From NCBI GenBank assembly GCA_903878115.1, contig CAIRGO010000303.1:1-64000 (forward strand): a stretch of DNA of 64,000 nucleotides, read 5' to 3'. Positions within the stretch are counted from its first letter, which is position 1, and every line of letters begins with the position of its first letter. A program made the position numbers and the translations under genes. Below the pieces are notes generated by a model. It was not told the origin of the DNA and did no database searches. It saw nothing but the letters and a program-made list of their open reading frames with translations. Positions 4,066 to 47,730 of this stretch are shown piece after piece. The DNA is from Akkermansiaceae bacterium. Its GTDB lineage: Bacteria; Verrucomicrobiota; Verrucomicrobiia; Verrucomicrobiales; Akkermansiaceae.

Positions 4066-4674
4066 ATGGAAGAGATTTTGCAGAAAGCTGTTTTGGTGCT
4101 TAACCGGAATTGGCAGCCGGTGCAGACCTGCACGGGGCGGAGAGCTGTTCATTTATTAAGCTGCGGTCATGCGCAAATTGTGCAGGACGAGGGTGAGGAA
4201 AAGTTTACGACTCACGACTTCTCCTCTTGGATCGCCTACTCATCACTCTATCCACAGCCAGAAATGATTCATTCGGTGAAGCTCTCTCTGCGATTGCCTA
4301 AAATCATAGTGCTCTGCCTTTACGATAAAATCCCTAGCAAGGAAGTGACTTTTTCGCGACGTAATGTTTTTTTACGCGATCAATACACTTGCCAGTATTG
4401 TATCAAATCGTTTGTCGAGACCGAATTGAATCTCGATCATGTGATTCCCCGTCATAAAGGCGGGAAAACATCGTGGGATAATATTGTAACTTCATGCGTA
4501 AAATGCAATACGCGAAAGGGAAATAAACTTCCGCATGAAGCAAATATGTATCCTCGCAATAAGCCGATTGCCCCGCGCTGGCGTCCTAATTTCGGCATGC
4601 GCGAGGTCAATCAAGAGGAATCTTGGGGGTATTTTATCGAGCCCAATCGCGATCACATACGCTTAGTGAGTTAA
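4066..4674 (+). CDS. HNH endonuclease
   Basis: The protein has 202 residues. The C-terminal half holds an HNH fold with two zinc-binding pairs, C109/C112 and C144/C147. The catalytic region LNLDHVIPRHKGG at about 121-133 is followed by Asn139. The N-terminal ~95 residues (VLNRNWQPV...AV.LL..GHA) are typical of a large family of stand-alone HNH proteins found in many bacterial genomes as housekeeping genes of unknown role. No restriction or phage gene is adjacent, which argues against a mobile origin. Confidence 0.8.
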   Translation: MEEILQKAVLVLNRNWQPVQTCTGRRAVHLLSCGHAQIVQDEGEEKFTTHDFSSWIAYSSLYPQPEMIHSVKLSLRLPKIIVLCLYDKIPSKEVTFSRRNVFLRDQYTCQYCIKSFVETELNLDHVIPRHKGGKTSWDNIVTSCVKCNTRKGNKLPHEANMYPRNKPIAPRWRPNFGMREVNQEESWGYFIEPNRDHIRLVS

Positions 4675-4684
4675 GAGATGTGCT

Positions 4685-4709
4685 GAGCTTGTGAAAAATT
4701 TCACAAAGT
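4685..4709 (+). promoter_or_regulatory. CRP/FNR-type palindrome upstream of the cytochrome oxidase operon
   Basis: The 16-base core TGTGAAAAATTTCACA (4690-4705) is a perfect TGTGA-N6-TCACA palindrome, the consensus for CRP/FNR-family regulators. The surrounding 25 bases recur upstream of nuoG (49569-49593) with only two differences, both in the central spacer, and in the same orientation relative to the downstream operon. A weak -10-like TACTTT lies at 4730-4735, a spacing compatible with activation from a site near -41. The regulator itself is not in the window. Confidence 0.65.
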
Positions 4710-4744
4710 TTCCCTAAAAACGCATCTTTTACTTTACAAGCTGA

Positions 4745-4775
4745 CAAAGAAGGGTATTTTTCCGCGTCTTCTTTG
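4745..4775 (+). promoter_or_regulatory. Inverted repeat in the probable 5' leader of ctaD
   Basis: CAAAGAAG at 4745-4752 and CTTCTTTG at 4768-4775 form a perfect 8-base stem with a 15-base loop. It lies between the CRP-type palindrome and the ctaD start and has no T-tract after it, so it is not a terminator. It could be a leader hairpin or a second operator. Confidence 0.3.
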
Positions 4776-4862: not shown

Positions 4863-6764
4863 ATGAGCGCACACGCAGCGACAGCAGATCATTCTTCTCA
4901 CGATCACCACGATGATCACGGGCACCATCATGAGCCCGGCTTTTGGTCAAAGTATGTTTTTTCCACCGACCATAAAATGATCGGTATACAGTATGGCATA
5001 ACTGCGATGTTATTCTTGCTGTTCGGATTTTATTTGATGATGGTGATGCGTTGGTCGATCGCCTATCCGCATGAGCCACTTCCTGGTTGGATGGATTGGG
5101 TTTTCACGGATAACTGGAAGGCACGCTGGCTGCAAGACGGTAAAGTCACAGGTGATACCTACAATATGTTTGGTGCCATGCACGGAACCATCATGGTGTT
5201 CCTTGGTGTAGTTCCTCTTGGTTTCGGTGCCTTTGGTAACTATGTAACACCGCTTCAAATCGGTGCGGTGGACATGGCATTTCCTAAACTGAATATGTTA
5301 TCATATTGGGTGTATCTGCTAGGTGGATTGATCATGATTGGTTCATTCTTCATGGAGTCGGGTTCGGCAAAATCAGGTTGGACGAATTACTCTCCTCTAG
5401 CAGGATTCGCGGATGGCCAAATTGTCAACCAGTGGCTCGCTGGTCAAACGCAGTGGCTCATTGGTCTGGTCTGCTTGATTACCTCGTCTCTCCTTGGTTC
5501 GGTAAATTTTGTTACGACGATCATCAACTTACGTGCTCGTGGGATGACCTGGATGCGCCTTCCATTTTTCGTATGGGCGATGCTGGTTACTGGTTTCTTG
5601 CTTCTCCTTGCGTTCCCTCCACTTGAGGCTGCTGGCATTATGCAATTAGTGGATCGCGTGTTCCATTCTTCATTCTTTTTGCCATCTGGACTGTTCACAA
5701 AATCCGATGGACTCGTTCAGATTTCCGGTGGTGGATCGCCGCTTCTGTTCCAGCATTTATTCTGGTTCCTCGGTCACCCAGAGGTTTATGTTCTTCTGCT
5801 TCCTGCTTTTGCCTGCGTTGCAGAAATTATTCCCGCAAACACGAGACGTCCGATGTGGGGCTACAAATCGATGGTCTATGGCGTGATTGTTTTAGGTTTT
5901 CTTTCCTTTGTCGTATGGGCTCACCACATGTATATGACAGGAATGGGACCCGCGATTTCTACTTGGTTCCAGATCACCACGGTTTTAATTTCTATCCCGT
6001 CGGTAGTTCTGCTTACTGCGTTGATGATCTCTCTGTGGGGTGGTTCCATTCGCTTTACGCCGCCAATGATTTGGGCCTGTGCATTCATTCCGATGTTCGG
6101 AATTGGTGGACTTACCGGATTGCCGCTGGCGTTTAATTTGGCCGATCTTCACCTTCATGATACTTATTATGTGATCGGTCACTTCCACTACGTGGTTGCC
6201 CCTGGAATCTTGTTTGCTTTCTTCGGTGGCGTGCATCACTGGTATCCAAAAATCACTGGTCGTTACATGAGCAAAACACTCAATCACCTGCATTTCTGGC
6301 CGACCTTGATCTGCATGAATACTTTGTTTTTCCCAATGCTTACCCAAGGCATGGCTGGCTTCCATCGACGTTGGTACAATGGCGGTGATGCTTATCTCGC
6401 CAAGGCTCTTGACTCCGCGAACGTATTCGGCACGACCGTGAGAGAGCACATCGACTTGAATATTCTGATGTCGCGCTCGGCTTGGATCATGGCGCTTTTC
6501 CAGATTCCTTTCATTGTGAATCTAATTCTTAGTTATGTTCGCGGTAAAAAAGTCGAGAGTGATAATCCATGGAATGCGACGACTCTGGAATGGGCAACGC
6601 CTACTCCTCCGGGGCATGGAAACTTTACCTTCGATGTGGCAGTGTATCGCGGACCTTACGAATACAGTCAGCCTGACTCTGATAAAGATTACACGCCTCA
6701 GTGGGAGAAGCCGAAAACTGATGCTCCTGTGATTGCTGAACCTGCGCCGGTCGCTCATCATTAA
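4863..6764 (+). CDS. ctaD: Cytochrome c oxidase subunit I (aa3-type)
   Basis: This is the catalytic subunit of the proton-pumping terminal oxidase, 633 residues with about twelve membrane helices. The ATG at 4863 is chosen because the upstream extension begins at a TTG. All metal ligands are visible: heme a His107 and His442, heme a3 His440, and CuB His305, His354 and His355. The cross-linked Tyr309 and the D-channel Glu307 (GHPEVY) indicate an A-type oxidase. The N-terminus is unusually His- and Asp-rich (residues 10-23), which may be metal-binding. This is the first gene of the operon. The CRP-type palindrome about 165 bases upstream suggests control by a CRP/FNR-family protein. Confidence 0.97.
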   Translation: MSAHAATADHSSHDHHDDHGHHHEPGFWSKYVFSTDHKMIGIQYGITAMLFLLFGFYLMMVMRWSIAYPHEPLPGWMDWVFTDNWKARWLQDGKVTGDTYNMFGAMHGTIMVFLGVVPLGFGAFGNYVTPLQIGAVDMAFPKLNMLSYWVYLLGGLIMIGSFFMESGSAKSGWTNYSPLAGFADGQIVNQWLAGQTQWLIGLVCLITSSLLGSVNFVTTIINLRARGMTWMRLPFFVWAMLVTGFLLLLAFPPLEAAGIMQLVDRVFHSSFFLPSGLFTKSDGLVQISGGGSPLLFQHLFWFLGHPEVYVLLLPAFACVAEIIPANTRRPMWGYKSMVYGVIVLGFLSFVVWAHHMYMTGMGPAISTWFQITTVLISIPSVVLLTALMISLWGGSIRFTPPMIWACAFIPMFGIGGLTGLPLAFNLADLHLHDTYYVIGHFHYVVAPGILFAFFGGVHHWYPKITGRYMSKTLNHLHFWPTLICMNTLFFPMLTQGMAGFHRRWYNGGDAYLAKALDSANVFGTTVREHIDLNILMSRSAWIMALFQIPFIVNLILSYVRGKKVESDNPWNATTLEWATPTPPGHGNFTFDVAVYRGPYEYSQPDSDKDYTPQWEKPKTDAPVIAEPAPVAHH

Positions 6765-6801
6765 TCTTACTTTTTTCGCTCACGATTTATTCTCTTTTTC
6801 T

Positions 6802-8385
6802 ATGGAAATTCCTTATATATTCACGCCACGTAAAGACACTGGAATGTGCAATTCCAAGATTGCCATCTGGCTTTTCCTCGCCTCTGAGGTGATGCTTTTC
6901 GGCGGATTCTTCTCCTCCTATGTTTATCTGCGTCTCGGTGCAGACTATCCATGGCCAGAACGCGCGCTGCCAGTGATGCCTGGTTTGATCAACACATTCG
7001 TGCTGATTTTTTCCTCTGTCACAGTAGTATTTGCTTGGGTTTCCCTTAAGCTTCGTAAGTGGGGCATGTTTCAAATATACATGGCAATCACCGTGCTCTG
7101 CGCCGCGATTTTCATGGGTCTGAAGGCCATTGAATACAACGTGAAATTCCATCACCAAGCGGTAAGACTATCCGATTATACCATTTTGGAAGGTCACTTG
7201 GATCATATTGAAGGAATTACCGATAAAAAAGGTCATGAAGTAGAGGCTGATGTAATTCATGTGAAAGTGAATAAGCTCACATTTAGTACCGTTCGTTTTC
7301 ATAAACCTTGGGTAGAAGAAATGATCCGTCAAGCTGAGGTGAATAAAGCAACAATCACACTTGGCTCCCCACTAAAAATTGAAGGGCAAGAAGTACCTTC
7401 GGGCACTGCATTAACAGTTTCTTTGCTTAATCAGATTAAGAAAAATCACCTTGCTTCCCGCTCGAACAATGCCGAAGTAAGGACTGAGGCTCTCCGTGAC
7501 GCATGGGTAACAGAAAAAGCTAAAGTGGGAAATGAAGGCAAGCAGGGTTGGCAGATGGCTAGCAATGTTAACATCGACATGGATGCCATCGCTGGTCAGT
7601 TGAAAGTAGAAACATCTTCGATTGTTTTCCAAGTAACCCCACCCACAGAATTATGGTTCCCTCAACGCGATATCAAAGAAGGTGCGACACAATCGAAACT
7701 ACGCGATGATACAGTCATCGACGGCGAAATGTTAGAAAGTCCGGTGGCTTTTCATAACTTAGACGCTATCGATTTCCGCTACGTAGTCATGAAGGCTGAG
7801 GAAAAAGGCATCGATCCAGAAAAAGCGATCGAAAATACTTGGTTGATTAAGAATAATGAAGAAGCGCGCGAAGCGTGGGAATGGAACAAGGAGCAGATGG
7901 TGATTCTCCAAGAAGAGCTAACCAAAGGTTATGGTCTTGATAAAAATGGCAAACCGAACCGTGAACCTACTCTCACCGAGCGTTACCGTATTGGTTGGCA
8001 GGATTTCGCAGCGAAAGCTGAAAAGGTCAACAAAGGCCATGAAGCATTCAACATGAAGGAACAGTTTATGGGACCAAACTACGAGCACCGTGCTCCGGCC
8101 CATACCTTTCCTCACTTGCACATTCCGCGCGAGTTGGTATTCCTTAGCGGCAAATTCACTCCCGCATGGAATACTTATTACGCGATTTATTTCACCATGA
8201 CCTTCCTTCACGGCCTTCACGTGATTGGTGGTGCAATCGTGCTTAGTTATTATCTTTTCCGTGGTAAAAAAATGTATCAAACAAATCCCGAGTGGTTGGC
8301 CAATCGCGTCGAAGTCGGTGGTCTATTTTGGCATTTTGTGGACCTTGTGTGGATCTTCCTTTTCCCGATCCTCTATTTGATGTAA
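6802..8385 (+). CDS. ctaE: Cytochrome c oxidase subunit III with a large periplasmic insert
   Basis: The protein has 527 residues, more than twice the ~200 of five-helix bacterial subunit III. Helices lie at about 20-42, 63-84 and 90-112, then at 455-485 and 505-526. The conserved 'GLKAIEY' with Glu111 is in the third helix, and the final helices carry HGLHVIGG and 'FWHFVDLVWIFLFPILYL'. Residues ~120-450 form a hydrophilic insert without cysteine or heme motifs. The positive loops (SLKLRK; YLFRGKK) place the insert on the periplasmic side, where cytochrome c docks. The start ATG at 6802 has a T-rich leader without a Shine-Dalgarno; an earlier in-frame start inside ctaD is unlikely. Confidence 0.93.
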   Translation: MEIPYIFTPRKDTGMCNSKIAIWLFLASEVMLFGGFFSSYVYLRLGADYPWPERALPVMPGLINTFVLIFSSVTVVFAWVSLKLRKWGMFQIYMAITVLCAAIFMGLKAIEYNVKFHHQAVRLSDYTILEGHLDHIEGITDKKGHEVEADVIHVKVNKLTFSTVRFHKPWVEEMIRQAEVNKATITLGSPLKIEGQEVPSGTALTVSLLNQIKKNHLASRSNNAEVRTEALRDAWVTEKAKVGNEGKQGWQMASNVNIDMDAIAGQLKVETSSIVFQVTPPTELWFPQRDIKEGATQSKLRDDTVIDGEMLESPVAFHNLDAIDFRYVVMKAEEKGIDPEKAIENTWLIKNNEEAREAWEWNKEQMVILQEELTKGYGLDKNGKPNREPTLTERYRIGWQDFAAKAEKVNKGHEAFNMKEQFMGPNYEHRAPAHTFPHLHIPRELVFLSGKFTPAWNTYYAIYFTMTFLHGLHVIGGAIVLSYYLFRGKKMYQTNPEWLANRVEVGGLFWHFVDLVWIFLFPILYLM

Positions 8386-8421: not shown

Positions 8422-8769
8422 ATGGCAGATTCCGTAGAACACATCAAAAAAACAGCCCGACTCTACCTATTAATCGGTGCGGTCTTATTCATCTTCACGG
8501 GCGTTACCGTGGCAGTTGCGAAAATCCCGATGCTCGATGTCGGCAAGCATGGATTCGACACAATGGACATGATTTTAGGACTTGCCATCGCCAGTTTTAA
8601 GGCATCTTTGGTAGGATACATTTTCATGCACTTAAATCATGAAAAAAAAGCAATCTACTGGATATTTTTCGGTGCAATTATGTTTTTCGGGTTTATGATC
8701 TTTCTATTCATGTTTGCCAAATATGACCCAATCCATTTCAACGGCTTCCAACTAGGTATTCCTAACTAA
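8422..8769 (+). CDS. ctaF: Cytochrome c oxidase subunit IV (prokaryotic COX4 type)
   Basis: The protein has 115 residues and three membrane helices, at about 13-33, 49-72 and 78-98. The family signature around the second helix is present (FKASLVGYIFMHLNHE). Subunit IV is a small structural partner of subunit III in caa3/aa3 oxidases of bacteria. It lies in the usual place after subunit III. The start is preceded by a pyrimidine-rich leader without a Shine-Dalgarno. Confidence 0.88.
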   Translation: MADSVEHIKKTARLYLLIGAVLFIFTGVTVAVAKIPMLDVGKHGFDTMDMILGLAIASFKASLVGYIFMHLNHEKKAIYWIFFGAIMFFGFMIFLFMFAKYDPIHFNGFQLGIPN

Positions 8770-9233: not shown

Positions 9234-10019
9234 ATGTCACCTACAGAATTCTTCAGTATTCCTAAAAGTTACTCGGCGCACGGTCCTCAAGTTGATCACA
9301 TGATTGATGTTGTGCATTGGTTCATGATTGTTCTCTTTCTCGGATGGACGGCCTATTTAGCAGTAGCATTGTTTCGATTCCGCCGTTCTGCTAGTCCTAA
9401 AGCCAGCTACCATGGCTTGACGAATCATGTTACTTCACACATTGAGATCGCAGTAATTATTGTGGAAGCTGTGCTTCTGTTAGGATTCGCGCTGCCTTTA
9501 TGGCGCGAGCGTACCGATACCTTTAAGCAAGTTGTGCAAGAAGAACACGTGCGTGTTCGAGTAGTAGGTTGGCAGTTTGGCTGGACCTACCATTACCCTG
9601 GTAAGGATGGCAAGTTTGGCCGTATCGATCCGTTCCAAATCTCAGGCACTAATGAACTTGGTATCGATCAGTCTGATCCAAATTCGACTGATGATTTTAC
9701 CAATCCGATATTGAAATTGCCGAAAGACATTCCGGCCATTTTGATGATCTCTAGCAAAGATGTGATTCATAATTACGCGATCGTTCCGATGCGCATTCAG
9801 CAAGATGCGCTTCCAGGAAAGGAAATCCCGATGTGGTTCACACCTGTGAAAACGTTAGAAACTTCGGTTGTGTGCGCGCAGTTGTGTGGCGAGGGTCACG
9901 GCAACATGGTTGGCTCTATGGAAGTGATCGAAGCTGCAGAGTATAAAACTTGGGCCAATGGTCAATCTGATGCTGCTCTGAAGGCGCGCGCGCCAAAAGC
10001 TCCAGTAGCGACCCGCTAA
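9234..10019 (+). CDS. ctaC: Cytochrome c oxidase subunit II
   Basis: The protein has 261 residues, with two membrane helices at about 28-48 and 70-90 and a periplasmic cupredoxin domain. All CuA ligands are present: His179, Cys214, Cys218, His222 and Met225, with Glu220 in between (CAQLCGEGHGNM). The aromatic tryptophan region VGWQFGWTYHYPG is at 111-123. No CxxCH follows, so this is an aa3 subunit II without a fused cytochrome c. Unlike most operons, where subunit II precedes subunit I, it is the last gene here. A hairpin follows the stop. Confidence 0.96.
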   Translation: MSPTEFFSIPKSYSAHGPQVDHMIDVVHWFMIVLFLGWTAYLAVALFRFRRSASPKASYHGLTNHVTSHIEIAVIIVEAVLLLGFALPLWRERTDTFKQVVQEEHVRVRVVGWQFGWTYHYPGKDGKFGRIDPFQISGTNELGIDQSDPNSTDDFTNPILKLPKDIPAILMISSKDVIHNYAIVPMRIQQDALPGKEIPMWFTPVKTLETSVVCAQLCGEGHGNMVGSMEVIEAAEYKTWANGQSDAALKARAPKAPVATR

Positions 10020-35416: not shown

Positions 35417-36817
35417 TTACACCTGTTGCAAAAATCTCCGCTGCGCTTCTTCTTCTGGATTATGCGGTTTGTCTCGATTTTCTGGCTTTGTATCGGCGAG
35501 GAGTTCGTCGCGGAATTTTGCGACGATGGCTTCCACTGGCCACGAGCTAGCTTCGCCAAAGGCGCAGATGGTGCGGCCGTCGATTTGGTAGGCGACACTT
35601 TCGAGTGTGGTGATATCCTCGGGGCTAGCTTGCCCATCGACGAGGCGGTCGGTGATTTTTTTCATCCACATGCTGCCTTCGCGGCAAGGGGTGCACTGAC
35701 CGCAGGATTCGTGGGCGTAAAAAGCATTGATGTTGTTGAGCACCCAGGAGATTTTGCGGCTGTCGTCGATGACGATGACACCACCTGAACCTGCCATGGA
35801 GCCACAGGCGGCAAGGCTATCAAAGTCCATCGGGATGTCCCAGAATGCGAGATCACGGGTGCTGCCATCTGGGTTTTTGAGTTTGTAAACTTCATCGCAG
35901 CGGAGGATTTTCGAGGAAGAACCGCCGGGGATGACTGCTTTGAATTCGCGACCGTCTTTTGGTCCGCCACAGATGTCGTAGAGCAGTTCGCGCATGGTAA
36001 GTTTGCCGACTTCTACTTCAAAGTAGCCGGGCTTTTTCACATCGCCGGAGACGCAGAGAATCCGCGTGCCGGTGTTTTTTGCCACACCGAGTTTGGCGTA
36101 TTCGTCGCCACCCATTTGCACGATGTGTTTTACATGGCAGAGCGATTCTACATTGTTTACAATGGTCGGACACATATAGAGTCCGAGTGCCGCTGGGAAA
36201 TAAGGTGGCTTGATGCGAGGGTAGGGGCGCTTGCCCTCTAACGATTCAATTAATCCTGTTTCCTCACCACAAATGTAAGCACCAGCTCCGCGATGCACGT
36301 AGATTTCTACGTCGAACCCACTGCCTAACACATTTTTGCCAACGAAATTTTTGCTGCGTGCTTCTTCGATCGCTTGCTCTACAATTTCAGCGGCGGCTGG
36401 GAATTCCTCGCGGATATAAATGTATGCCACATGAGCGCCAACGGCAAACGCCGAGATGACCATGCCTTCGATCAATTGATGTGGGTCTTGGTGAAGAATG
36501 TATCGATCTTTGAAAGTTCCGGGTTCTGATTCATCACCATTGCAGATCAGATAGACTGGTTTGGTATTGTTCGGTGGGATAAATGTCCACTTCATTCCCG
36601 TAGGGAAACCCGCACCCCCACGACCGCGAAGGCCTGACTTTTTTACTTCCTCGGTGATATCTTTCGGCGCCATAGTGATGGCTTTTTTTAACTGCTCGTA
36701 GCCGCCATTCCGCAGGTAGCAGTCGATCGATGGATCATAATCCGCGCGATCCACATTTTTAAAAATGAGGCGATACTCGCGAGCGTGTGGTTCTTTTCCA
36801 GGAAGGTAGGTGATCAT
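35417..36817 (-). CDS. nuoF: NADH-quinone oxidoreductase subunit F
   Basis: The protein has 466 residues. The NADH/FMN-binding block SGLRGRGGAGFPTGMKW is at about 62-78, with CNGDESEPGTFKDR next. The HRGAGAYICGEET block follows in the middle of the protein. The C-terminal 4Fe-4S site SCGQCTPCREG is present with its fourth Cys in ICAFGE. It is the NADH-oxidising subunit of complex I, facing the cytoplasm. It is the last gene of the cluster, separated from nuoE by a toxin-antitoxin pair. Confidence 0.97.
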   Translation of the reverse strand: MITYLPGKEPHAREYRLIFKNVDRADYDPSIDCYLRNGGYEQLKKAITMAPKDITEEVKKSGLRGRGGAGFPTGMKWTFIPPNNTKPVYLICNGDESEPGTFKDRYILHQDPHQLIEGMVISAFAVGAHVAYIYIREEFPAAAEIVEQAIEEARSKNFVGKNVLGSGFDVEIYVHRGAGAYICGEETGLIESLEGKRPYPRIKPPYFPAALGLYMCPTIVNNVESLCHVKHIVQMGGDEYAKLGVAKNTGTRILCVSGDVKKPGYFEVEVGKLTMRELLYDICGGPKDGREFKAVIPGGSSSKILRCDEVYKLKNPDGSTRDLAFWDIPMDFDSLAACGSMAGSGGVIVIDDSRKISWVLNNINAFYAHESCGQCTPCREGSMWMKKITDRLVDGQASPEDITTLESVAYQIDGRTICAFGEASSWPVEAIVAKFRDELLADTKPENRDKPHNPEEEAQRRFLQQV

Positions 36818-36856: not shown

Positions 36857-37258
36857 TTAGATGAGTGTGGGGATGGAAATTACTTTCACTCCGTAAGGCG
36901 TGAAGCGATCGAAATCAGAAATATTACGGGTAGCAATTGGTTGTTGGGAACAGAATGCCGCTGCAGCGATCATGCAGTCGGCATGAGATCCGCGCTTACG
37001 ACCAGTTTTATGAAAAAGACGTGAGGCAAATTCTGCCTGATCCTCGGAGAACGGGTGGATCCCTCCACGCAGGATGGCATGGACGGCATCCTTTTGCTCC
37101 TTGGTGTGAGGGCCATTGCAAAATTCCGACCAAGTGACGGCTGATGCCGCGAGTGGAATATTGCTTTTCAGCCACCCGTGCACCATTGCCACTTGAGCGG
37201 AATGGCTAGTGACAAGATCGATCAAAATATTTGTATCCAAATGAATCACGACTCCCAC
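36857..37258 (-). CDS. PIN-domain toxin (VapC-like)
   Basis: The protein has 133 residues from a GTG start inside the end of the antitoxin gene (13-base overlap). PIN nuclease acidic residues are Asp8 (LDTN), Glu45, Asp94 (HADCMIAA) and Asp115, so the active site is intact. PIN toxins cleave tRNA or other RNA. It lies between nuoE and nuoF, in the same orientation, with a ribbon-helix-helix partner. Confidence 0.86.
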   Translation of the reverse strand: MGVVIHLDTNILIDLVTSHSAQVAMVHGWLKSNIPLAASAVTWSEFCNGPHTKEQKDAVHAILRGGIHPFSEDQAEFASRLFHKTGRKRGSHADCMIAAAAFCSQQPIATRNISDFDRFTPYGVKVISIPTLI

Positions 37259-37570: not shown

Positions 37571-38134
37571 TCAGGAATACTTTTTCAGTAATGCCTCTGC
37601 CTGCTCTGGTATGACACCTTCGTAAAAATCATCGTTCACCATGCAGACCGGAGCAGAACCGCAGGAAGCGAGGCATTCCGCGAATTCGACAGAAAAATTT
37701 CCGCAAGGAGAAACGCTAACGGGGTGGTGATGAGAGTCTGCGTGTGAGCGATCGATTCCTGAGAGCTCACAGAGTTTTTCCATCAATTCGTATGAACCAC
37801 CCATCGCGCAGGAAAGGGTGCGACAGACACGGATGTGGAATTTTCCTGGAGCAGATTGACGAAATCCTGGGTAGAATGTTACCACTTCTAAGACTTTGAT
37901 CGGTTCAATTCCAATTGTTGCAGCGACCCAATCGATCGCCGCAGCCGAGATGAAACCGTGGTGGTGCTGGATGTAGTGCAGCAAAGGCAACACGGCGGAA
38001 CGTTTCTGTTGATCGGGAAACTGTGCGAGACGTTTTGTGGCTTCTGCTTCCAGTGCGGGTGTGATGGCAAAAGGCGCAAAATTTTTCGTGCCTGGTGTTT
38101 CTTCAGAGGCGATGTTTTGGTCTAGAGAGGACAT
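37571..38134 (-). CDS. nuoE: NADH-quinone oxidoreductase subunit E
   Basis: The protein has 187 residues. A thioredoxin-like 2Fe-2S fold has four ligand Cys in 'CRTLSCAMGG' and 'ECLASCGSAP'. The N-terminal helical region contains RSAVLPLLHYIQHHHGFIS and VLEVVTFYPGFRQS. It passes no electrons on the main chain but binds cluster N1a next to NuoF. It directly follows nuoD (24-base gap). Confidence 0.96.
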   Translation of the reverse strand: MSSLDQNIASEETPGTKNFAPFAITPALEAEATKRLAQFPDQQKRSAVLPLLHYIQHHHGFISAAAIDWVAATIGIEPIKVLEVVTFYPGFRQSAPGKFHIRVCRTLSCAMGGSYELMEKLCELSGIDRSHADSHHHPVSVSPCGNFSVEFAECLASCGSAPVCMVNDDFYEGVIPEQAEALLKKYS

Positions 38135-38158: not shown

Positions 38159-39409
38159 TTAACGGTCGCATTCGCCCATCACGAAATCTAACGATCCGAG
38201 AATTGCGGGAATATCGGACACCATGTGGCCGGGAAGGAGGTTGGAAACGATGGCAAGGTTGCAGAAGGAGGGGCTACGAATTTTTAGGCGATTTGGCACG
38301 CCTCCACCTTTTGAGTGAATATAAAATCCAAGTTCACCTTTCGGGTTTTCATGACCGAAATAGACTTCGCCTTCAGGCGCATTAATTCCTTGTGTCGAGA
38401 CGATGAAGTGGTGAATCAATTCCTCCATCGACATCAGCACGCGTTCTTTATCAGGCAACATCGATTTGGTATCGGCAAGATTGATCGGTCCCTCGGGCAT
38501 GGTGTCGAGAACTTGACGGCAAATTTTGATCGACTGGCGCATTTCTTCCATGCGGATTTGATAACGAGCGTAGCAGTCGCCTTCTTCAGTAATGGGAATA
38601 TCGAAATCGTATTTTTCGTAGCCGAGATAAGGATTGTCTTTGCGTAAATCACGCGTCACACCAGAAGCGCGTAAATTCGGTCCAGTCATGCCCCAAGAAA
38701 TGGCTTCTTCTTTTGAAATAACTCCCACATCTGCCATGCGATCGATGAAGATTTTATTGCGATCTAGCAATTTAGCGATTTCGGCAATGGCGATGGTGCA
38801 TTCATCAAGAAAAGTGCGCACAGCTTGATCGAATCCAGGCGGCATATCACGCATTTGACCGCCCACACGAGTGTAAGAAGTCGTGAATCGCGCTCCTGTG
38901 AGCTGTTCGCAGAGATTGTAAACTTTTTCGCGTTCGGTGAATGTATAAAGGAAAACCGTCATCGCTCCGACGTCCATGGCGCATACACCCACACCGAGCA
39001 TGTGAGCGGAAATACGCGCCAATTCACAGCATAGCACTCGTAATGCCTGACCGCGTGGTGGTAGCTCCCACCCCATGAGTTTTTCTACAGCACAAGCATA
39101 GGCAACGTTGTTAGCCAAAGGAGCAAGGTAGTCCAATCGGTCGGTGTAGGGGACGAACTGATTGTAATGCATGTTTTCCGCGATTTTTTCATCACCACGA
39201 TGAAGGAAACCCACATCCGGATCGGCGGTAATAATGGTCTCGCCATCGAGCTCTAAAATCAAGCGCAGCACACCGTGTGTTGCTGGGTGAGAAGGCCCCA
39301 TATTCAATGTCATGCGCTCCCCGTGGAGATCAGAGGTCTCAGCATTGTAGTCATCGTGACCACGTGCCGTTTTTGCGAGAGTATCGGGTGCTTCGTATTC
39401 TGTTTTCAT
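38159..39409 (-). CDS. nuoD: NADH-quinone oxidoreductase subunit D
   Basis: The protein has 416 residues, the normal length for a NuoD that is not fused to NuoC. The block MTLNMGPSHPATHGVLRLILELDGE contains the conserved quinone-site His residues. GFLHRGDEKIAE, YLAPLANNVAYACAVE and the C-terminal DFVMGECDR are also as expected. It forms the quinone pocket with NuoB. It is separated from nuoN by a vapBC pair, and nuoB and nuoC are not in the window. Confidence 0.97.
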   Translation of the reverse strand: MKTEYEAPDTLAKTARGHDDYNAETSDLHGERMTLNMGPSHPATHGVLRLILELDGETIITADPDVGFLHRGDEKIAENMHYNQFVPYTDRLDYLAPLANNVAYACAVEKLMGWELPPRGQALRVLCCELARISAHMLGVGVCAMDVGAMTVFLYTFTEREKVYNLCEQLTGARFTTSYTRVGGQMRDMPPGFDQAVRTFLDECTIAIAEIAKLLDRNKIFIDRMADVGVISKEEAISWGMTGPNLRASGVTRDLRKDNPYLGYEKYDFDIPITEEGDCYARYQIRMEEMRQSIKICRQVLDTMPEGPINLADTKSMLPDKERVLMSMEELIHHFIVSTQGINAPEGEVYFGHENPKGELGFYIHSKGGGVPNRLKIRSPSFCNLAIVSNLLPGHMVSDIPAILGSLDFVMGECDR

Positions 39410-39445: not shown

Positions 39446-39874
39446 TTAAAAATTGTCGTTTTCATTAGCATACATGCCGAGGTAGCCGGGTTTGTAAAGT
39501 CGGAGATTGAGAACTGGTGCCATTAATTCAAAGTGTTTGTCACAGGCATAGATGCGGCAGTCCGCAACTTGGCCTATTGTGGCAATCAGCACATCATTCC
39601 ACGGCGCTTGAATGCCCTGCGCTCGCAATTTAGCGAAATTTGTTGCCGCTTTACGCCACAATGTTTGTTCATTGCGGCAGTAGGGGAGCACGTTGCACCA
39701 AGCTTGCAGTCGATCACGTTCATGCGGACGCGCTCCTCCGAGGAATTCCATTTCCACAGGCCCACACAAGGTGGCCTCATAGGCATCAAGTAGCGCCTGC
39801 AATGCAAGTTTTACATCGTCGCGTCCATCGCGGCGATGCATCTCAATCCAGGCGCTAGTATCTACAATTACCAT
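39446..39874 (-). CDS. vapC: VapC-type PIN toxin
   Basis: The protein has 142 residues. The PIN acidic residues are Asp5 (VDTSAWIE), Glu41/Glu43, Asp94 (PWNDVLIA) and Asp112, so the nuclease site looks intact. It begins 2 bases after the antitoxin stop. The pair sits between nuoN and nuoD in the same orientation. It is a different PIN subgroup from the toxin at 36857-37258. Confidence 0.88.
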   Translation of the reverse strand: MVIVDTSAWIEMHRRDGRDDVKLALQALLDAYEATLCGPVEMEFLGGARPHERDRLQAWCNVLPYCRNEQTLWRKAATNFAKLRAQGIQAPWNDVLIATIGQVADCRIYACDKHFELMAPVLNLRLYKPGYLGMYANENDNF

Positions 39875-40141: not shown

Positions 40142-41626
40142 TTATCTAACGTTTTTTAATAGATTGAATAGTGGTTGTTGCCATACACCAAAGACTAAGA
40201 TGGCGACAGTAAGAAAGGTGAGTGCGAAGGAAAAGATCGACGAGGTATCAAACGGAATGGGAGATTTGTGGTTCGGAGTGTTCCACCAGATCGCGCGGAG
40301 AATTTTGAAATAGTAGTAAAATCCAGCAGAGGCGGCGATGGCAGCAATGATCACTGGGATCCACTGATGCGAAGCTAAAGCTGCCTGAAAGACGAAGAAT
40401 TTCCCAACGAATCCTACAGTAAGAGGGACGCCTGCCAACGAGGCCATGATGATGGTGGCAGCGACGGCGAGGATCGGATTACGCTTGGAAAGACCATCGA
40501 GCGCGTCAATGTTGTCCGAGCCACTTTGCACACGAATGATATTGAGAATAAAGAATGCGGCCATGGTCATGATCAAATAGCTGGCAAGATAAAATGCCGC
40601 AATTTTGGCAGAGGATAAACCATCTGCCCCATCACGATTTGCTGCGATGGCGAGCAGGATGAATCCAGCATTCGCGATCGATGAATAGGCGAGCAGGCGT
40701 TTGAAATTGTTTTGTGGAATCGCTCCGAAGTTGCCGATGATCAATGTCGCGCAGGCGAGAATAACCAAGACCGATGAGATTTTTCCTGCATAGGGACTGT
40801 GAGAAAACGGCGCGAGAAAAGTGATCAAAGCCATGAATCCGGCAGCTTTTGAACCTACCGAGAGAAACGCTGTCGTCGGTGTGGGCGCTCCTTGATAGAC
40901 ATCAGGAATCCAAAAATGCATCGGAGCTGCTCCGATTTTGAAACCTAGAGCAATAATGACTAATGCGACACCAAATAGCAATGGCGTGCCAGGTGTCCCT
41001 TCGAAATTAGCAGCGAGGGTGATTTGTGCGAAATCGAGCGTGCCAGTGGCCCCGTAAATCCAAGCGATGCCATACACCAAAAATCCCGTAGAAAGAGCCC
41101 CGAGAATGAGGTATTTCACGCCCGCTTCAAGTGAGCCGACGTTGCGTTTCATATAAGCCACCAAAATGTAAAAAGTAACGGTCAGCAATTCTAAGGAAAC
41201 GAATAAGAATGCCAAATTTTTGGCGGATGCCATCCACATCATTGCTGAAGTGGCAATCACGATGAGTGAATAATATTCTCCCGTGCCCTCTTCTTTGCCG
41301 TGATCGCCGGAAAATTTGGAAAGCACCGAGCGGTAATCGATGGCGAGAATCAATACGAATATTGCTGAAACCAGAGCGATGATTTTGTAAAAACGAGCGG
41401 TGGCATCGTATTTGTAAAGATTCCACAAGGCATAATTGGCCCACTCTTTGCCCTCGGCGGCATCATCGGGGCCGATGGCGCGCAGTGTCAGCGCAAGGAC
41501 ACCAATTAGTCCGACAATGGCGACAAGACCAACCCAAGTTTTACTTTTGCTTGGAATAAATGCTTCGGCCACGAGGAGGAATATTCCAAGTGTAACCGTC
41601 AGGGCTTCGAGATAATAGGCGGGCAT
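40142..41626 (-). CDS. nuoN: NADH-quinone oxidoreductase subunit N
   Basis: The protein has 494 residues with about 14 membrane helices, one of three antiporter-like proton-translocating subunits. The key Glu in 'LFVSLELLTVTFYILVAY' and the Lys-bearing 'KIGAAPMHFWIPDVYQGAPTPTTAFLSVGSKAAGF' region are visible, as is 'AYSSIANAGFILL'. It follows nuoM by 16 bases. It is the last gene before the first toxin-antitoxin insertion. Confidence 0.95.
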   Translation of the reverse strand: MPAYYLEALTVTLGIFLLVAEAFIPSKSKTWVGLVAIVGLIGVLALTLRAIGPDDAAEGKEWANYALWNLYKYDATARFYKIIALVSAIFVLILAIDYRSVLSKFSGDHGKEEGTGEYYSLIVIATSAMMWMASAKNLAFLFVSLELLTVTFYILVAYMKRNVGSLEAGVKYLILGALSTGFLVYGIAWIYGATGTLDFAQITLAANFEGTPGTPLLFGVALVIIALGFKIGAAPMHFWIPDVYQGAPTPTTAFLSVGSKAAGFMALITFLAPFSHSPYAGKISSVLVILACATLIIGNFGAIPQNNFKRLLAYSSIANAGFILLAIAANRDGADGLSSAKIAAFYLASYLIMTMAAFFILNIIRVQSGSDNIDALDGLSKRNPILAVAATIIMASLAGVPLTVGFVGKFFVFQAALASHQWIPVIIAAIAASAGFYYYFKILRAIWWNTPNHKSPIPFDTSSIFSFALTFLTVAILVFGVWQQPLFNLLKNVR

Positions 41627-41642
41627 GATAGGAAAATGTTAG

Positions 41643-43088
41643 TTATTTCAAAAGTTGCACAAGAATATTAGGATAGATGCCCACGATCAAAAGTGCGGCG
41701 GCTAGGAGTAGTGCGGGGAGTTTATCCATAAGAGGAATATCAGTGGCGTTGACTGTCATGCTGACAGTAGGTCCTTGAAATATTTTGCGGAAGGCTCGTA
41801 ACACATAAACCGCGCTAAGCACCACGCCCCAAAGTGATAGAATCGTAGTGATTTGCACGGGCGTGAGAGGGTCGGCAGCATTGCGTCCTTCAAAGCTAGA
41901 GAGAAATACCATGATTTCTCCGGAGAAATTCGCCAGACCAGGCAGTCCGAGTGATGCCATGCCACCTAGGCCAAAAAGAAATGCTAAGGTCGGTGCTGGT
42001 TTTGCCAAACCACCGAGATCGGCGAAATCGAGGCTCCCAGTGCAACGTTCGATCCGGTCCGCCAATCCAAAAAGCAGGGCGATCGAAATACCATGCGCGA
42101 ACATCAATACCGAGGCGGCTGGAATCGCGTAAGTGTTCACTTTTCCGGCAGCGTTCGATGCGATCAATGCGGCTATTGCAAGGAAAATATAGCCCATGTG
42201 CATCACTGAGGAATTGCCGAGCATGGCATCGAGACGTTTTTGATTGATCGTCACAAACCCAACCCAAAGGATATTACCTAACAACAGAACCAACAACGGG
42301 GTAAGCCATGCATTCATTCCTATTGGCAACAATGGCACGGCGAGTTGCAACAATCCATAGAGGCCAAATTTTTTCAATACCCCCGCGTGAAGCATCGCAG
42401 TTGGGGCAGGAGCACTGGCGTATGCAGGTGCGGCCCATGAATGAAATGGGAACAGCGAAACTAGCGTGCCGAAGCCAATGATCAGCAATGCAGCGATGGG
42501 CTTTTGCGCAGCAGGGTCGATTTGACGAGTTCCGTCTAACATCGCGATCATGTTGTATGTTCCTGATTCTTTGGCGAGCCACACCAAGCCGGCTAACAAA
42601 ATGAGCGAGCCAACACCGAGATAGATGGTGATTTTCCAAGCAATTTCCTTACGACTGCCGCGCCCTAACAAGCCAATCATCAAAAAGGTAGGGATCAATG
42701 CCAATTCGTGAAATGCATAGAAGAAATACAAGTTCGTCGAAATAAATGCTCCGATCGCTCCCGCGGCGATGAATAAACTCGATGAGTAATATAGTTTTTC
42801 ACGACCCTCTGGTGCTTTGCCTGTAAATACTGCCGCTGCCGTGACAATCACTGATAGTGCAACCATAATGGCCGAGGTTCCATTGAGGAAACCGAATGCG
42901 AGATCAATCGATGGCGTGATCAGCACAGACAATGAAGAGGCCCAGCACTCGCACTGCCAAGTAAACGCGGCATACAGACCGATGAGCAATGTCGTCATCG
43001 CCGCAATGCGCGCCGTGAGTCTAGCGGGTGCACCAAAAATAATGGCTACCGCGGCGAGAAATGGAATCAGGAAAATGATGGATAACAT
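41643..43088 (-). CDS. nuoM: NADH-quinone oxidoreductase subunit M
   Basis: The protein has 481 residues from the ATG at 43088, which begins a hydrophobic N-terminus as usual for NuoM; a longer start would overlap nuoL. The channel Glu is in 'FYAFHELALIPTFLMIGL'. The broken-helix region is 'LFPFHSWAAPAYASAPAPTAMLHAGVLKKFG', with the conserved Lys. It is an integral proton-pumping subunit with about 14 helices. It lies between nuoL and nuoN in standard order. Confidence 0.94.
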   Translation of the reverse strand: MLSIIFLIPFLAAVAIIFGAPARLTARIAAMTTLLIGLYAAFTWQCECWASSLSVLITPSIDLAFGFLNGTSAIMVALSVIVTAAAVFTGKAPEGREKLYYSSSLFIAAGAIGAFISTNLYFFYAFHELALIPTFLMIGLLGRGSRKEIAWKITIYLGVGSLILLAGLVWLAKESGTYNMIAMLDGTRQIDPAAQKPIAALLIIGFGTLVSLFPFHSWAAPAYASAPAPTAMLHAGVLKKFGLYGLLQLAVPLLPIGMNAWLTPLLVLLLGNILWVGFVTINQKRLDAMLGNSSVMHMGYIFLAIAALIASNAAGKVNTYAIPAASVLMFAHGISIALLFGLADRIERCTGSLDFADLGGLAKPAPTLAFLFGLGGMASLGLPGLANFSGEIMVFLSSFEGRNAADPLTPVQITTILSLWGVVLSAVYVLRAFRKIFQGPTVSMTVNATDIPLMDKLPALLLAAALLIVGIYPNILVQLLK

Positions 43089-43122
43089 GGTGAAATGGAT
43101 TAGTTGTCGGAACAAGTTCGAA

Positions 43123-44928
43123 TCAAAAGACAATCAGGTAAATGATGATCAGTACGCCGAGAGACAGAAATGCGGCGTATGTTTGTAAGTTGCCAGATTG
43201 CATGCGGCGGATTAATAGACCAATGCCCTGGGCACCGCGTGAGATCCCTCCGACGAAGAGACCGTTGATGAAAAGTTCATCAAAGAAATGAACAATCGCC
43301 GCGAAGGCATCTTGGAAATACTTGACGATAAAATTGTCGTAAAAGCCATCAACGTAAAAGCGATTGCGGAATAGCGGAAGTGACAACGGATCTTTTGTTT
43401 TGCCGCTGTATAAAATAAAGCCAGCCGCAAGCCCGAATACTAATGTTCCGATGGAAACGAGGAGCACAATCGATGGATGCTCGTGATGTTCTGGGCGAAT
43501 CGCGGAGAGAGTATGAGCGATGTCTAATCCACCAATTTTCGTAGCAGAAAGAATCGCCATCCCCGCTAAGAGCACAAGTGGAAGATACATCAGCGGTCCT
43601 ACTTCATGAGCGTGATCTGCATTATCGCTCTTGGTTTTTCCGAGGAATGCCACCACGAACAAACGGGTCATGTAAAATGTCGTGAGAAACGCCACAAATA
43701 CCGCGATACAAAATAGTGCTTTGTTGTGGTGATAGGCAGCAGATAAAATTTCTTCTTTGGACCAGAAACCAGAGGTGACAAATGGCACGGCGATCAATGC
43801 CGCATAACCTAACAAGAATGTCATTCCGGTAATTGGCATTTTTTTCAACAAGCCGCCCATTTTCCAAATGTCTTGTTCATGATGGCATGCATAAATTACA
43901 GCTCCAGAACCGAGGAATAACAGTGCTTTAAACCATGCGTGAGTGAACAAGTGGAACATGCCAGCTTCTCCAGAACTGAGTCCGACAGCCATGACCATAT
44001 AACCGAGTTGCGATAGCGTGGAATAAGCGAGGATGCGTTTGATGTCGTCTTGTTGCGTGGCCATTAACGCGGCAACAAGTGACGTGATCCCTCCAACCCA
44101 AGAGATGATTGTTCCTGCATTGTTTTCAAATATGTGGCTCTCTGGAAACGAGAATTGCACGCGGAACAGCATATACACACCAGCCGCGACCATCGTTGCG
44201 GCGTGAATTAGTGCCGATACGGGAGTCGGGCCTTCCATGGCATCTGGCAGCCAAACGTGCAGTGGAAGTTGGGCGGATTTGCCAACGGCGCCGCAGAATA
44301 TGCAAAGCAGTGCAGTTACCAACACGCCTGTTGCAAGTCCACTAGGCAATGCCATCTCTGCAAAAGTAAATGTGCCAGTGATATTCCACAGCAACAAGAT
44401 GCCGATCATAAAACCAAAGTCACCCACGCGGTTGCAAAGAAAGGCTTTTTTCGAAGCCTCTGCCGCAGAATCTTTCTGATACCAATGACCGATGAGTAGA
44501 TAGGAGCTCAAACCCACCAATTCCCAGAAGATGAAGGTCATGATGAAATTGTTCGCTAACACAATTCCCGTCATCGAGAACATGAACAATGATAGCCCTG
44601 TGAAAAAACGCGCCTTCGCGGAATCATCTTTCATGTAGGCTAACGAGAAAATATGCACTAGCATACCAACTCCCGTTACCACAATCATCATGCCAGTTGA
44701 TAGTTTATCAAGCGTAATGCCTATGTCTAACGAATGCTTGCCAATGCTAATCCAGTGATACGGTTCTGGAGATGCTGTCGAGCCTAACAAACTGTAGGCA
44801 ATGCCAAAAGTCGCTACCGACGAGACGGTAGAGATCAATGCGGCTACCGTATGGAGCTTTTGCAATAAGAGGAAATTCAACGCGGCAACAGCCAGCGGTA
44901 ACAGGAGTAAATACCAAGCGAGTGACAT
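43123..44928 (-). CDS. nuoL: NADH-quinone oxidoreductase subunit L
   Basis: The protein has 601 residues with about 16 helices. It contains 'FIFWELVGLSSYLLIGHWY' with the conserved Glu, and 'GKSAQLPLHVWLPDAMEGPTPVSALIHAATMVAAGVYML', both hallmarks of NuoL. The C-terminal segment should carry the lateral amphipathic helix that clamps NuoM and NuoN, and ends in a final helix. The length is close to the usual ~610-650. Confidence 0.96.
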   Translation of the reverse strand: MSLAWYLLLLPLAVAALNFLLLQKLHTVAALISTVSSVATFGIAYSLLGSTASPEPYHWISIGKHSLDIGITLDKLSTGMMIVVTGVGMLVHIFSLAYMKDDSAKARFFTGLSLFMFSMTGIVLANNFIMTFIFWELVGLSSYLLIGHWYQKDSAAEASKKAFLCNRVGDFGFMIGILLLWNITGTFTFAEMALPSGLATGVLVTALLCIFCGAVGKSAQLPLHVWLPDAMEGPTPVSALIHAATMVAAGVYMLFRVQFSFPESHIFENNAGTIISWVGGITSLVAALMATQQDDIKRILAYSTLSQLGYMVMAVGLSSGEAGMFHLFTHAWFKALLFLGSGAVIYACHHEQDIWKMGGLLKKMPITGMTFLLGYAALIAVPFVTSGFWSKEEILSAAYHHNKALFCIAVFVAFLTTFYMTRLFVVAFLGKTKSDNADHAHEVGPLMYLPLVLLAGMAILSATKIGGLDIAHTLSAIRPEHHEHPSIVLLVSIGTLVFGLAAGFILYSGKTKDPLSLPLFRNRFYVDGFYDNFIVKYFQDAFAAIVHFFDELFINGLFVGGISRGAQGIGLLIRRMQSGNLQTYAAFLSLGVLIIIYLIVF

Positions 44929-44952
44929 AGGAAATTTGTTAGATGATTGTGA

Positions 44953-45273
44953 TTAGCCTTTCAGCGTCGTTAGTTCATCGGTGTAGATGGTTTGTCTCGT
45001 GCGATAAAGCGCCACGATGATAGCTAGGCCCACAGCGACTTCCGCTGCGGCTACGGTGACGACGAAAAATACTAACATTTGACCGTGGATGTCCGGCAAG
45101 CCATTGGCTCCTGGATAGAAGCGAGAAAAGGCAATCAATGTCAAATTGGCAGCACTGAGCATCAATTCGAGACACATAAAAACCACGATGATATTGCGGC
45201 GTAAGACCACGCCAGTAAGACCAATCGCGAATAACAGGCCAGCAACGAGTAGGTAGTGATTGAGAGAGGGCAT
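44953..45273 (-). CDS. nuoK: NADH-quinone oxidoreductase subunit K
   Basis: The protein has 106 residues with three membrane helices. The two channel Glu residues lie in '[12 protein letters not shown]' and '[19 protein letters not shown]'. Length and order (between nuoJ and nuoL) are standard. Confidence 0.95.
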
Positions 45274-45280
45274 GAAATGA

Positions 45281-45835
45281 TTAGTTACTTTGTTTTTTAG
45301 AAAGGGTCACCACCCCGATAGTCGCGACGAGAAGTAATACGCCGAGAATTTGCAATGGTAGATTGTATTCCGTGAAAAGGCTTTGCCCGATTAAGTGAAC
45401 ATCGGGTAAAGAATTGGCGGAGAGGTTTTTAGCAATTTGTGTCCCTGGTGTGAAACTCGCCGCAGAGGCAGGTAAGTCTAGTGCTGGCATTGCCTTGTCG
45501 GGCGTTGTCGATATCACACCAATCAATTGAATGGTGAATGCAATAACGATGCCCAGTCCACCAAGGATTGGCGCCATCTTAGGAGTGCGTTTTTTATCGG
45601 TATTAAGATCCAGTAACATGATGATGAAAATGAACAAAACCATAATCGCACCTGCGTAAACCAAGATCTGAATGATACCAGCAAAATAAGCATTCATGCC
45701 GACAAATAGCCCTGCGAGTCCAACAAACGAGGCAACCATCGACATTGCGCTAGCAACCGGATTGCGCAACAACACAACGGCCGCTGCTCCGAAAAGCATG
45801 ATGACGGTAAATAACCAAAAAATAGGTAATGGCAT
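45281..45835 (-). CDS. nuoJ: NADH-quinone oxidoreductase subunit J
   Basis: The protein has 184 residues from the ATG at 45835, which starts the first helix. An upstream start at 45871 would overlap nuoI and is less likely. Five membrane helices are seen, with the conserved region '[30 protein letters not shown]' that undergoes the pi-bulge change in complex I. It lies between nuoI and nuoK. Confidence 0.93.
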
Positions 45836-45852
45836 AAATGAGAGAGTATAAA

Positions 45853-46419
45853 TTATTTGATTTCGTTCCACTTATTGACGAGTCCTACGCGGACGCCGCC
45901 GATTTCGTATAGTTTCTTTTTATCGTGAACCATCTCCGCGCGATTGAGGCCAGAGATCAGATAGTCTTTGCGCAAATAAATCGCCTGCTCGGGGCAGACT
46001 TCCTCACACATGCCGCAGTAGATGCAGCGAATCATATCGATTTCAAATTCTTTGGGACGTTTTTCCACCTTGGCCCATGGGTCGTCCGACGGGATTTCAC
46101 CGGGGATGATTTTGATCGCCTTGGGAGGACAAATAAATTCACATAATTGGCAGGAAACGCAGCGCTCACGTCCTTGCTCGTCGGTCACGAGAGTTGGTGC
46201 GCCACGATAGTAATCAGGCATGTGATCATCCCATCGTTGTTCAGGATATTGCATGGTGATGCCTAGTCCCGAGGAGGCTAGGTCTTTTGCTCCGCGTGAT
46301 TTATTTCGCAATGAAGCAACGGCATGTTTCATGGTGAGAAAGAATCCCTTGATGAGAGCACCAAAATAGATTTTTTCTCCAACAGTAAGCTTAGGGCGTG
46401 AAAGTTTGATAATGGCCAT
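45853..46419 (-). CDS. nuoI: NADH-quinone oxidoreductase subunit I
   Basis: The protein has 188 residues, with two ferredoxin-type 4Fe-4S sites, CVSCQLCEFICP and CIYCGMCEEVCP, binding clusters N6a and N6b. The N-terminal amphipathic region lies on the membrane. It passes electrons to cluster N2 in NuoB, which is not encoded in this window. Confidence 0.96.
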   Translation of the reverse strand: MAIIKLSRPKLTVGEKIYFGALIKGFFLTMKHAVASLRNKSRGAKDLASSGLGITMQYPEQRWDDHMPDYYRGAPTLVTDEQGRERCVSCQLCEFICPPKAIKIIPGEIPSDDPWAKVEKRPKEFEIDMIRCIYCGMCEEVCPEQAIYLRKDYLISGLNRAEMVHDKKKLYEIGGVRVGLVNKWNEIK

Positions 46420-46433
46420 GAGATGAAGTAAGA

Positions 46434-47696
46434 TTATTGTCCAGCAACTTTGGTTTTTGGTTCGGAAACTTTCGCGACGTAGACAATCGCGGCAGTGGTG
46501 ACGATGAGTAACACAGCGCCGATGCTAAGGATGGCAGGGGTGAATTTATGTGAGCCAGAAGCGATCACCAGAGCTGCAAGGAAAACGTTGATGAGTGCTG
46601 CTTCGAAAAATATCACCCAACCGAGGCGCATCAATTGATCATAACGGAAACGTGGCACTGTCCAGCGAACGAGAATGAAGAACAGAATAAAGCCGATCAC
46701 TTTTGTTAAGAAAATCGCAAGGTGAATCAGTCCGCCGATTTGGAAACTGCCGAGTGAAAGTTTTGCGATCCCTGCATCGAGACCAAATCCTGCTGACCAA
46801 CCGCCGAGGAATAAAGTAATGATCAAAGCTGAACCTACGACCATGGCCGCATATTCGCCCATGAAGAACATGGCAAATTTCATCGATGAATACTCCGTGT
46901 GATAGCCTCCGACTAATTCGGTTTCGCATTCGGGAAGGTCGAAGGGCATGCGATTGGTTTCCGCAAAAATGGAAATGGTAAAGATCACAAATGAGATGAA
47001 TGCAGGAATCCAAAAAAGTAATTTACTGGTTAAGGAAAGTGCTCCTTCGCCATGACCCCATAATGGCAGCAATAACCAACCGTGATCTGCTTGGTATTGT
47101 ACGATTTTCGTTAGATTTAATTCGCCGAAATACATCAACACGGGGATGATGGAGAGCCCTAACGCTATTTCATAGGAGATCATTTGTGCGGTAGAGCGAA
47201 CTCCACCGATGAATGGGAATTTTGAGTTGGATGACCATCCTGCTAGGGTGATGCCATAGACCGAAAGAGACGCGATAGCGAAGATGAAAAGTGGGCCAAC
47301 GTTGATGTCAGCAATTACTAATCTGATCGGGTCCATACCGGGTAGTTTGATATCGCTACCAAAAGGAATGACGCACAAGGTGATCAATGCGGGGGCCACC
47401 GTTAGTGCTGGAGCCATCCAGTAAAACGCTTTGCGAACATGCGCAGGAGTGAAGTCCTCTTTGAGGAAAAGCTTTACTCCATCGGCCATTGGCTGGATCA
47501 ATCCGAAAAAGGACCAGTCTTTTTTAAAGCCAAAAAGTGTTAGAGGAATGCCAACGCGGTTAGGTCCGACACGGTCCTGAATGATGGCAGAAAATCGTCG
47601 TTCGAAATACACTGCGATCGGCACCAGTGGCAGTACCACCACGAAGGTGAGCGTGATGATTTTTATAATAATTGTTACGATGAGAGCGATGTCCAT
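46434..47696 (-). CDS. nuoH: NADH-quinone oxidoreductase subunit H
   Basis: The protein has 420 residues, longer than the usual ~320-350. The N-terminal block 'YFERRFSAIIQDRVGPNRVG' and 'LIQPMADGVKLFLKEDFTP' are typical. The quinone-chamber motif 'FAETNRMPFDLPECETELVGGYHTEYSSMKFAMFF' carries the essential acidic residues. It anchors the peripheral arm and couples quinone chemistry to pumping. The extra length lies mainly in the middle and in the C-terminal helices. Confidence 0.95.
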   Translation of the reverse strand: MDIALIVTIIIKIITLTFVVVLPLVPIAVYFERRFSAIIQDRVGPNRVGIPLTLFGFKKDWSFFGLIQPMADGVKLFLKEDFTPAHVRKAFYWMAPALTVAPALITLCVIPFGSDIKLPGMDPIRLVIADINVGPLFIFAIASLSVYGITLAGWSSNSKFPFIGGVRSTAQMISYEIALGLSIIPVLMYFGELNLTKIVQYQADHGWLLLPLWGHGEGALSLTSKLLFWIPAFISFVIFTISIFAETNRMPFDLPECETELVGGYHTEYSSMKFAMFFMGEYAAMVVGSALIITLFLGGWSAGFGLDAGIAKLSLGSFQIGGLIHLAIFLTKVIGFILFFILVRWTVPRFRYDQLMRLGWVIFFEAALINVFLAALVIASGSHKFTPAILSIGAVLLIVTTAAIVYVAKVSEPKTKVAGQ

Positions 47697-47730
47697 GTGT
47701 AGAATATTGTTAAATTAGCGCCTTGGGAGC

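Follow-up and report, generated by a model that had tools for sequence, protein, structure and literature searches.

Two matching palindromes before the cytochrome oxidase and nuo operons of an Akkermansiaceae genome are very probably operators of the NADH/NAD+-sensing repressor Rex

The 64-kb stretch of an Akkermansiaceae genome analysed here (the window; contig 303 of a 4.41-Mb assembly that comprises 331 contigs and is 95.3% complete) contains two respiratory operons preceded by nearly the same palindrome. On the plus strand, ctaD (4863–6764), encoding cytochrome c oxidase subunit I (COX1 PF00115, 426 bits; CtaD_CoxA, 1.1e-160), is the first gene of a caa3-type cytochrome oxidase (cox) operon; on the minus strand lies nuoG-H-I-J-K-L-M-N (40142–49491), in which G and H were named by models and I to N by Pfam domains and order. 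Before ctaD, at 4685–4709 (+), and before nuoG, at 49568–49592 (−), stand the 25-mers GAGCTTGTGAAAAATTTCACAAAGT and GAGCTTGTGAAATTTTTCACAAAGT, the latter read from 49592 to 49568. Their common form is GAGCTTGTGAAA[AA/TT]TTTCACAAAGT. The first-pass annotation had reported that the two agree at 23 of 25 bases in the direction of their operons, which is confirmed, the two central bases being the sole difference, and had placed a core palindrome, the 16-base TGTGAAAAATTTCACA, at 4690–4705 and 49573–49588. Its letters and positions hold, but the symmetric core is longer than it stated, namely the 18-mer TTGTGAAANNTTTCACAA, in which outer TT/AA and inner AAA/TTT are fixed in addition to TGTGA-N6-TCACA. 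The predicted operators are accordingly TTGTGAAAAATTTCACAA at 4689–4706 (+), 156 nt 5′ of the ctaD ATG at 4863, and TTGTGAAATTTTTCACAA (read along the operon) at 49572–49589 (−), about 80 nt 5′ of the nuoG ATG at 49491. Both elements are very probably operators of the NADH/NAD+-sensing repressor Rex within a small respiratory-chain regulon, for which we infer binding, the sign of regulation and the response to NADH.

Both window sites match the published Rex operator, TTGTGAAN4TTCACAA (PMC5355995, PMC2883068), without mismatch. Within the window they are the only mismatch-free occurrences of TGTGA-N6-TCACA, and the only matches to the 18-mer even when up to three mismatches are allowed. A simple calculation puts the chance of two perfect matches over 16 fixed positions at about 1e-5 to 1e-4 per 64 kb, so that they are not expected at random. 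Perfect sites number exactly five in the whole source genome, where a reversed control pattern has none. All five stand before respiratory or quinone genes: the two in the window, one before nuoB-nuoC (contig C313), one 15 nt 5′ of the aligned start of a polyprenyl diphosphate synthase gene (C104), and one before the multiheme cytochrome gene of an alternative complex III operon (C142), which is followed by a gene for a 1106-residue ActB-like protein. The closest NCBIfam model to this cytochrome is QrcA; from gene context and general knowledge we take it to be ActA. Weaker sites with two mismatches, on C29, C115, C189 and C195, do not precede any reference respiratory gene, and we treat them as chance matches.

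The source genome encodes one clear Rex, a protein of 207 residues on contig C52, which consists of a winged-helix N-terminal domain and an NAD(H)-binding domain. It scores above the cut-off of several NCBIfam Rex models, reaches 70 bits with PF06971 and matches PDB Rex chains over its full length, with E values down to 1e-43. In the Thermotoga maritima Rex–DNA structure, bases are contacted by Arg48, Lys49, Arg60 and Gly61 (PMC8836258); these residues are kept in the C52 protein (SQLRKD...TRGLGY), as is the GAGNLG motif. When its recognition helix and wing, SQLRKDIAYMGQWGTRGLGY, are aligned with T. maritima Rex, the backbone contacts Lys43 and Ser52 are seen to be replaced. A second Rex-like protein, on C278, is of the DeoR type and falls below the cut-off. 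The rex gene lies 33 nt downstream of rpoD, the gene of the primary sigma factor, and the pair may be co-transcribed.

The sites and Rex occur together across relatives. A survey of the phylum (289 genomes) turned up perfect sites in 17, every one of which also has Rex. Within the window's family and one other sampled family of its order, the 15 genomes with Rex all carry sites, 5–11 each, and the 23 genomes in which Rex is absent have none. Twenty-two of these 23 belong to one genus, which is probably Akkermansia itself, and the remaining one, G215, is from a genus in which the two further species sampled retain both rex and operator. Beyond the two families, many members of the phylum have Rex but lack a perfect 18-mer.

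Several records of metagenome-assembled genomes (MAGs) titled Akkermansia muciniphila (among L139–L147 and L206) carry a perfect nuoG operator, and Rex is present in both of those tested (L139, L143). The 22 sampled members of the Rex-less genus have neither Rex nor the nuoG operator, and the titles of the operator-bearing MAGs are probably wrong.

We read 78 perfect sites in 14 genomes, and 77 of them precede respiratory, ATP-synthase, quinone or rex genes; together with the five of five in the source genome, this bears out the concentration before respiratory operons for which the first-pass annotation had suggested looking. The targets are ActA (13 sites), AtpB (12), NuoG (11), NuoD (10), NuoB (9), polyprenyl synthase (8), NDH-2 (4), NuoF (3), CtaD (2, the second in G269, of the window's genus), NuoH (2), and NuoE, MqnE, Rex and one other (1 each). 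The regulon predicted for the source genome thus comprises nuoBC, nuoG-N, alternative complex III, the caa3 oxidase and the quinone side-chain synthase, to which the predicted regulon of relatives adds ATP synthase, NDH-2, MqnE and rex itself; atpB was not found in the source assembly. In a distant phylum member, G163, the sole perfect operator lies 29 nt 5′ of its own rex (L069, position 2543), which suggests autoregulation there. G241 has two perfect operators in tandem before actA, 7 bp apart (L083, 2523–2565).

At nuo, atp and ndh2 genes the operator stands at a nearly constant distance from a predicted promoter. For nuoG in the window, a −35 element TTGCAC (49559–49564, −) lies 7 nt after the operator and is followed, 17 nt further on, by a −10 element CATAGT (49536–49541, −). 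The TTG of the −35 starts at +6 to +9 after the operator at every one of the 52 nuo, atp and ndh2 sites (34 at +8, 13 at +6), against a mean of 3 of 52 and a maximum of 6 when the window of search is slid along the same sequences. A −10-like hexamer follows 15–18 nt after the −35, in nuoG promoters of relatives mostly CATAGT or CATATT, and the mean −35/−10 score is 8.25, compared with 5.59 ± 0.16 in shuffles. If the −10 is numbered −12 to −7, the operator spans approximately −60 to −43 at these promoters. The actA and polyprenyl-synthase operators lie instead 10–47 nt 5′ of the start codon. The candidate cox promoter is a weak TTTACA-N16-TATTTT at 4733–4760, the −10 of which is not conserved in G269.

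Genomes that have naturally lost rex show what remains of these sequences without it. Among 80 nuoG loci in named genomes (Luteolibacter, Haloferula, Roseibacillus, Rubritalea and many MAGs), 57 have a perfect operator before nuoG. At 11 loci the operator has decayed, and Rex is absent from all 11 genomes. In these loci and in G215 the nuoG −35 and −10 are intact, and an A/T tract (positions −19 to −14 relative to the −35), along with AA at −9/−8, is kept as A/T in 11–12 of the 12, while T and A at the outer positions of the Rex half-sites survive in only 0–3. The nuoD operators of eight Rex-less genomes have lost the distal half, with the promoter-proximal half for the most part retained. At ten further nuoG loci the operator is missing from genomes that do have Rex; nuoG may not head its transcription unit there. 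The association of rex with the operator gives Fisher p-values of 5.9e-7 and 6.5e-11. However, only a few, clustered losses of Rex appear on the NuoG tree, and a paired, phylogeny-aware test on independent branches of that tree was not significant and lacked power; the Fisher values therefore overstate independence, and the association rests on a handful of loss events plus the mechanistic pattern.

In homologues, Rex with NAD+ represses and NADH releases it (PMC5355995, PMC8836258), and we expect repression in this lineage by analogy. At a high NAD+/NADH ratio, a Rex dimer on the 18-bp palindrome would hold the operons down; as NADH builds up, Rex–NADH would leave the DNA and the NADH-oxidising chain would be made, giving homeostatic feedback. 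At nuo, atp and ndh2 promoters, where the operator lies immediately upstream of the −35 and overlaps an A/T tract positioned as an UP element would be, Rex would probably exclude RNA polymerase, by way of the C-terminal domain of its alpha subunit (alpha-CTD), sigma region 4 or both. At actA and the polyprenyl synthase gene, an operator near the start codon would probably block initiation or elongation.

UP elements are bound by the alpha-CTD at A/T-rich subsites. Because the A/T positions that persist after rex loss match those of UP elements, we tentatively propose, as a possibility somewhat short of an even chance, that the Rex operator of Verrucomicrobiales is superimposed on the promoter UP element, with a constant spacing to the −35. 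AAAWWTTT and the terminal AAA would feed the alpha-CTD and the outer TTGTG/CACAA would be read by Rex, such that the NADH/NAD+ ratio would gate use of the UP element at complex I, ATP synthase and NDH-2 promoters; after rex is lost, the letters read by Rex would erode and a constitutive UP promoter would stay.

The Rex interpretation draws on the site, the regulon, the rex gene, co-occurrence, conservation, fixed geometry and co-loss, all computed directly. Beside the few, clustered losses and the non-significant paired test, several observations weigh against it. An operator centred near −50 is not in the commonest position for a repressor. No Rex was found in 4 of 29 genomes with a nuoG operator, probably incomplete assemblies, and the Rex-less G215 keeps an operator with one mismatch at nuoD. 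Finally, the source assembly, in 331 contigs, 95.3% complete and without a detectable atpB, does not make the absence of another regulator absolute.

That other regulator would be one of the CRP/FNR family, which the first-pass annotation had named as a strong candidate for binding TGTGA-N6-TCACA and controlling both operons jointly. The letters of the inner half-sites are those of the E. coli CRP consensus, TGTGA and TCACA, and the targets are respiratory operons; FNR-type half-sites (TTGAT-N4-ATCAA) are absent. Sixteen positions are conserved, however, including AAA/TTT by the centre and the outer TT/AA, as in Rex sites, and this longer Rex consensus appears to account better for the constrained positions than a CRP/FNR site does. 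In addition, the presence of sites follows that of Rex across genomes. The HTH_Crp_2 profile had no match above cut-off in the whole source genome; of its two weak matches, one is inside an Lrp/AsnC-like frame. The sole protein with cyclic nucleotide-binding domains has two of them and ferredoxin-like cysteine motifs, without a recognisable helix-turn-helix, and no protein combining a cyclic nucleotide-binding-like domain with HTH_Crp was found in the genome as assembled. Joint control by one regulator, the other part of the earlier proposal, is strongly supported, while its attribution to CRP/FNR, for which no gene turned up, is extremely improbable. A different alternative keeps Rex but makes it an activator at nuo, atp and ndh2, touching RNA polymerase from its fixed place before the −35. 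An operator-to-−35 distance held within 4 nt in 52 of 52 cases is a spacing rule typical of activators, and a position centred near −50 is upstream of the core promoter. Yet the −35, −10 and A/T tract of nuoG persist where Rex is gone, and the promoter therefore does not require Rex. Moreover, Streptomyces avermitilis Rex represses nuo and atp, with footprints at −42 to −16 and −50 to −22 (PMC5355995), and activation by Rex–NAD+ would be a positive feedback on NADH removal, which is physiologically odd. We consider activation unlikely.

It could also be asked whether the two 25-mers, carried with a duplicated promoter, are recent copies of each other; a recent duplication was one of two possibilities that the first-pass annotation saw in their conserved flanks. 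In most relatives ctaD has no separate operator and shares contig and strand with the single actA operator, about 12–14 kb 3′ of it, whereas in the window's genus (G000, G269) cox and act stand apart, each with its own operator. The cox operator therefore probably arose when an act-cox operon split, and a newer cox site, like the 23 of 25 identities that include the flanks, would fit copying. But the likeness stops at the operator, with differing sequence beyond the 25-mer and differing promoters, and conservation of the nuoG site extends over two families. The asymmetry of the 25-mer, with AGC flanking one end and ACT the opposite one, is a common combination and ordinary, since these are the commonest outer flanks among 154 half-sites (AGC 37, ACT 34); at the polyprenyl-synthase site of the same genome they occur in the opposite orientation. 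We reject the flanks as a mark of duplication, which is not needed to explain them and which we judge very unlikely. The additional contact offered as the other explanation is partly right: A occupies the first position past the operator, towards the promoter, in 46 of 48 nuo and atp sites, adjoining the fixed −35, and at these sites the promoter-distal flank is GC or CT without exception.

Rex has been studied most thoroughly in Gram-positive bacteria and in Thermotoga. Neither the regulator nor its operator is new, and Rex control of nuo, atp and ndh2 has been described before; the promoter geometry and the co-loss of rex and operator are new here. The closest parallel is S. avermitilis, where Rex directly represses nuoA1-N1, atpIBEFHAGDC and ndh2 via TTGTGAAN4TTCACAA and is released by NADH, which lowers its DNA binding (PMC5355995). 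Operator, nuo/atp/ndh2 targets and Rex are shared, but Streptomyces also controls cyd, hem, hppA and wblE, as against alternative complex III, the caa3 oxidase and the polyprenyl synthase here. Sites here are perfect, whereas the motifs listed for S. avermitilis have one to three mismatches, and the 18-mer ends 5–8 nt before the −35, whereas in Streptomyces the operator covers or follows it (the atpI footprint, −50 to −22, overlaps the −35; PMC5355995). The Rex proteins of T. maritima, Thermus and Streptococcus with known DNA complexes (7WB3, 3IKT, 3KET; PMC8836258) resemble the present one in family, length, base-contacting Arg and Lys, wing Arg-Gly and the GxGxxG nucleotide motif; unlike them, it would control an aerobic chain. 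Among 5.39 million open-access papers we found none joining Rex with alternative complex III, and the matches describe no Rex regulon in Verrucomicrobia. If our interpretation is correct, a single NADH/NAD+ sensor sets nearly all of oxidative phosphorylation in the aerobic Akkermansiaceae and Verrucomicrobiaceae. Rex-less genomes are a natural experiment on what remains of promoters after repressor loss.

The remaining genes of the two operons show some further peculiarities. Downstream of nuoN and in the same direction are nuoD (38159–39409), nuoE (37571–38134) and nuoF (35417–36817), all on the minus strand, and two PIN-domain (VapC-like) genes interrupt the nuo series, one between nuoN and nuoD (39446–39874, −), preceded by a small VapB-like frame, and one between nuoE and nuoF (36857–37258, −). 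In relatives a Rex operator lies directly 5′ of nuoD; it is missing at the nuoD of the window. The cox operon continues on the plus strand to 10019, with a subunit III-like gene (6733–8385), caa3 subunit IV (8422–8769) and subunit II (9234–10019). The subunit III-like protein has 550 residues, about 330 of which part the two COX3 halves. Nine other family members in the sample share this insertion, with identities from 66% down to about 30% compared with 92–70% for the COX3 N-terminus, and it diverges faster. On the other side of ctaD, an HNH endonuclease gene with weak similarity to IscB/Cas9-like HNH domains (4066–4674, +) ends 14 nt 5′ of the cox operator.
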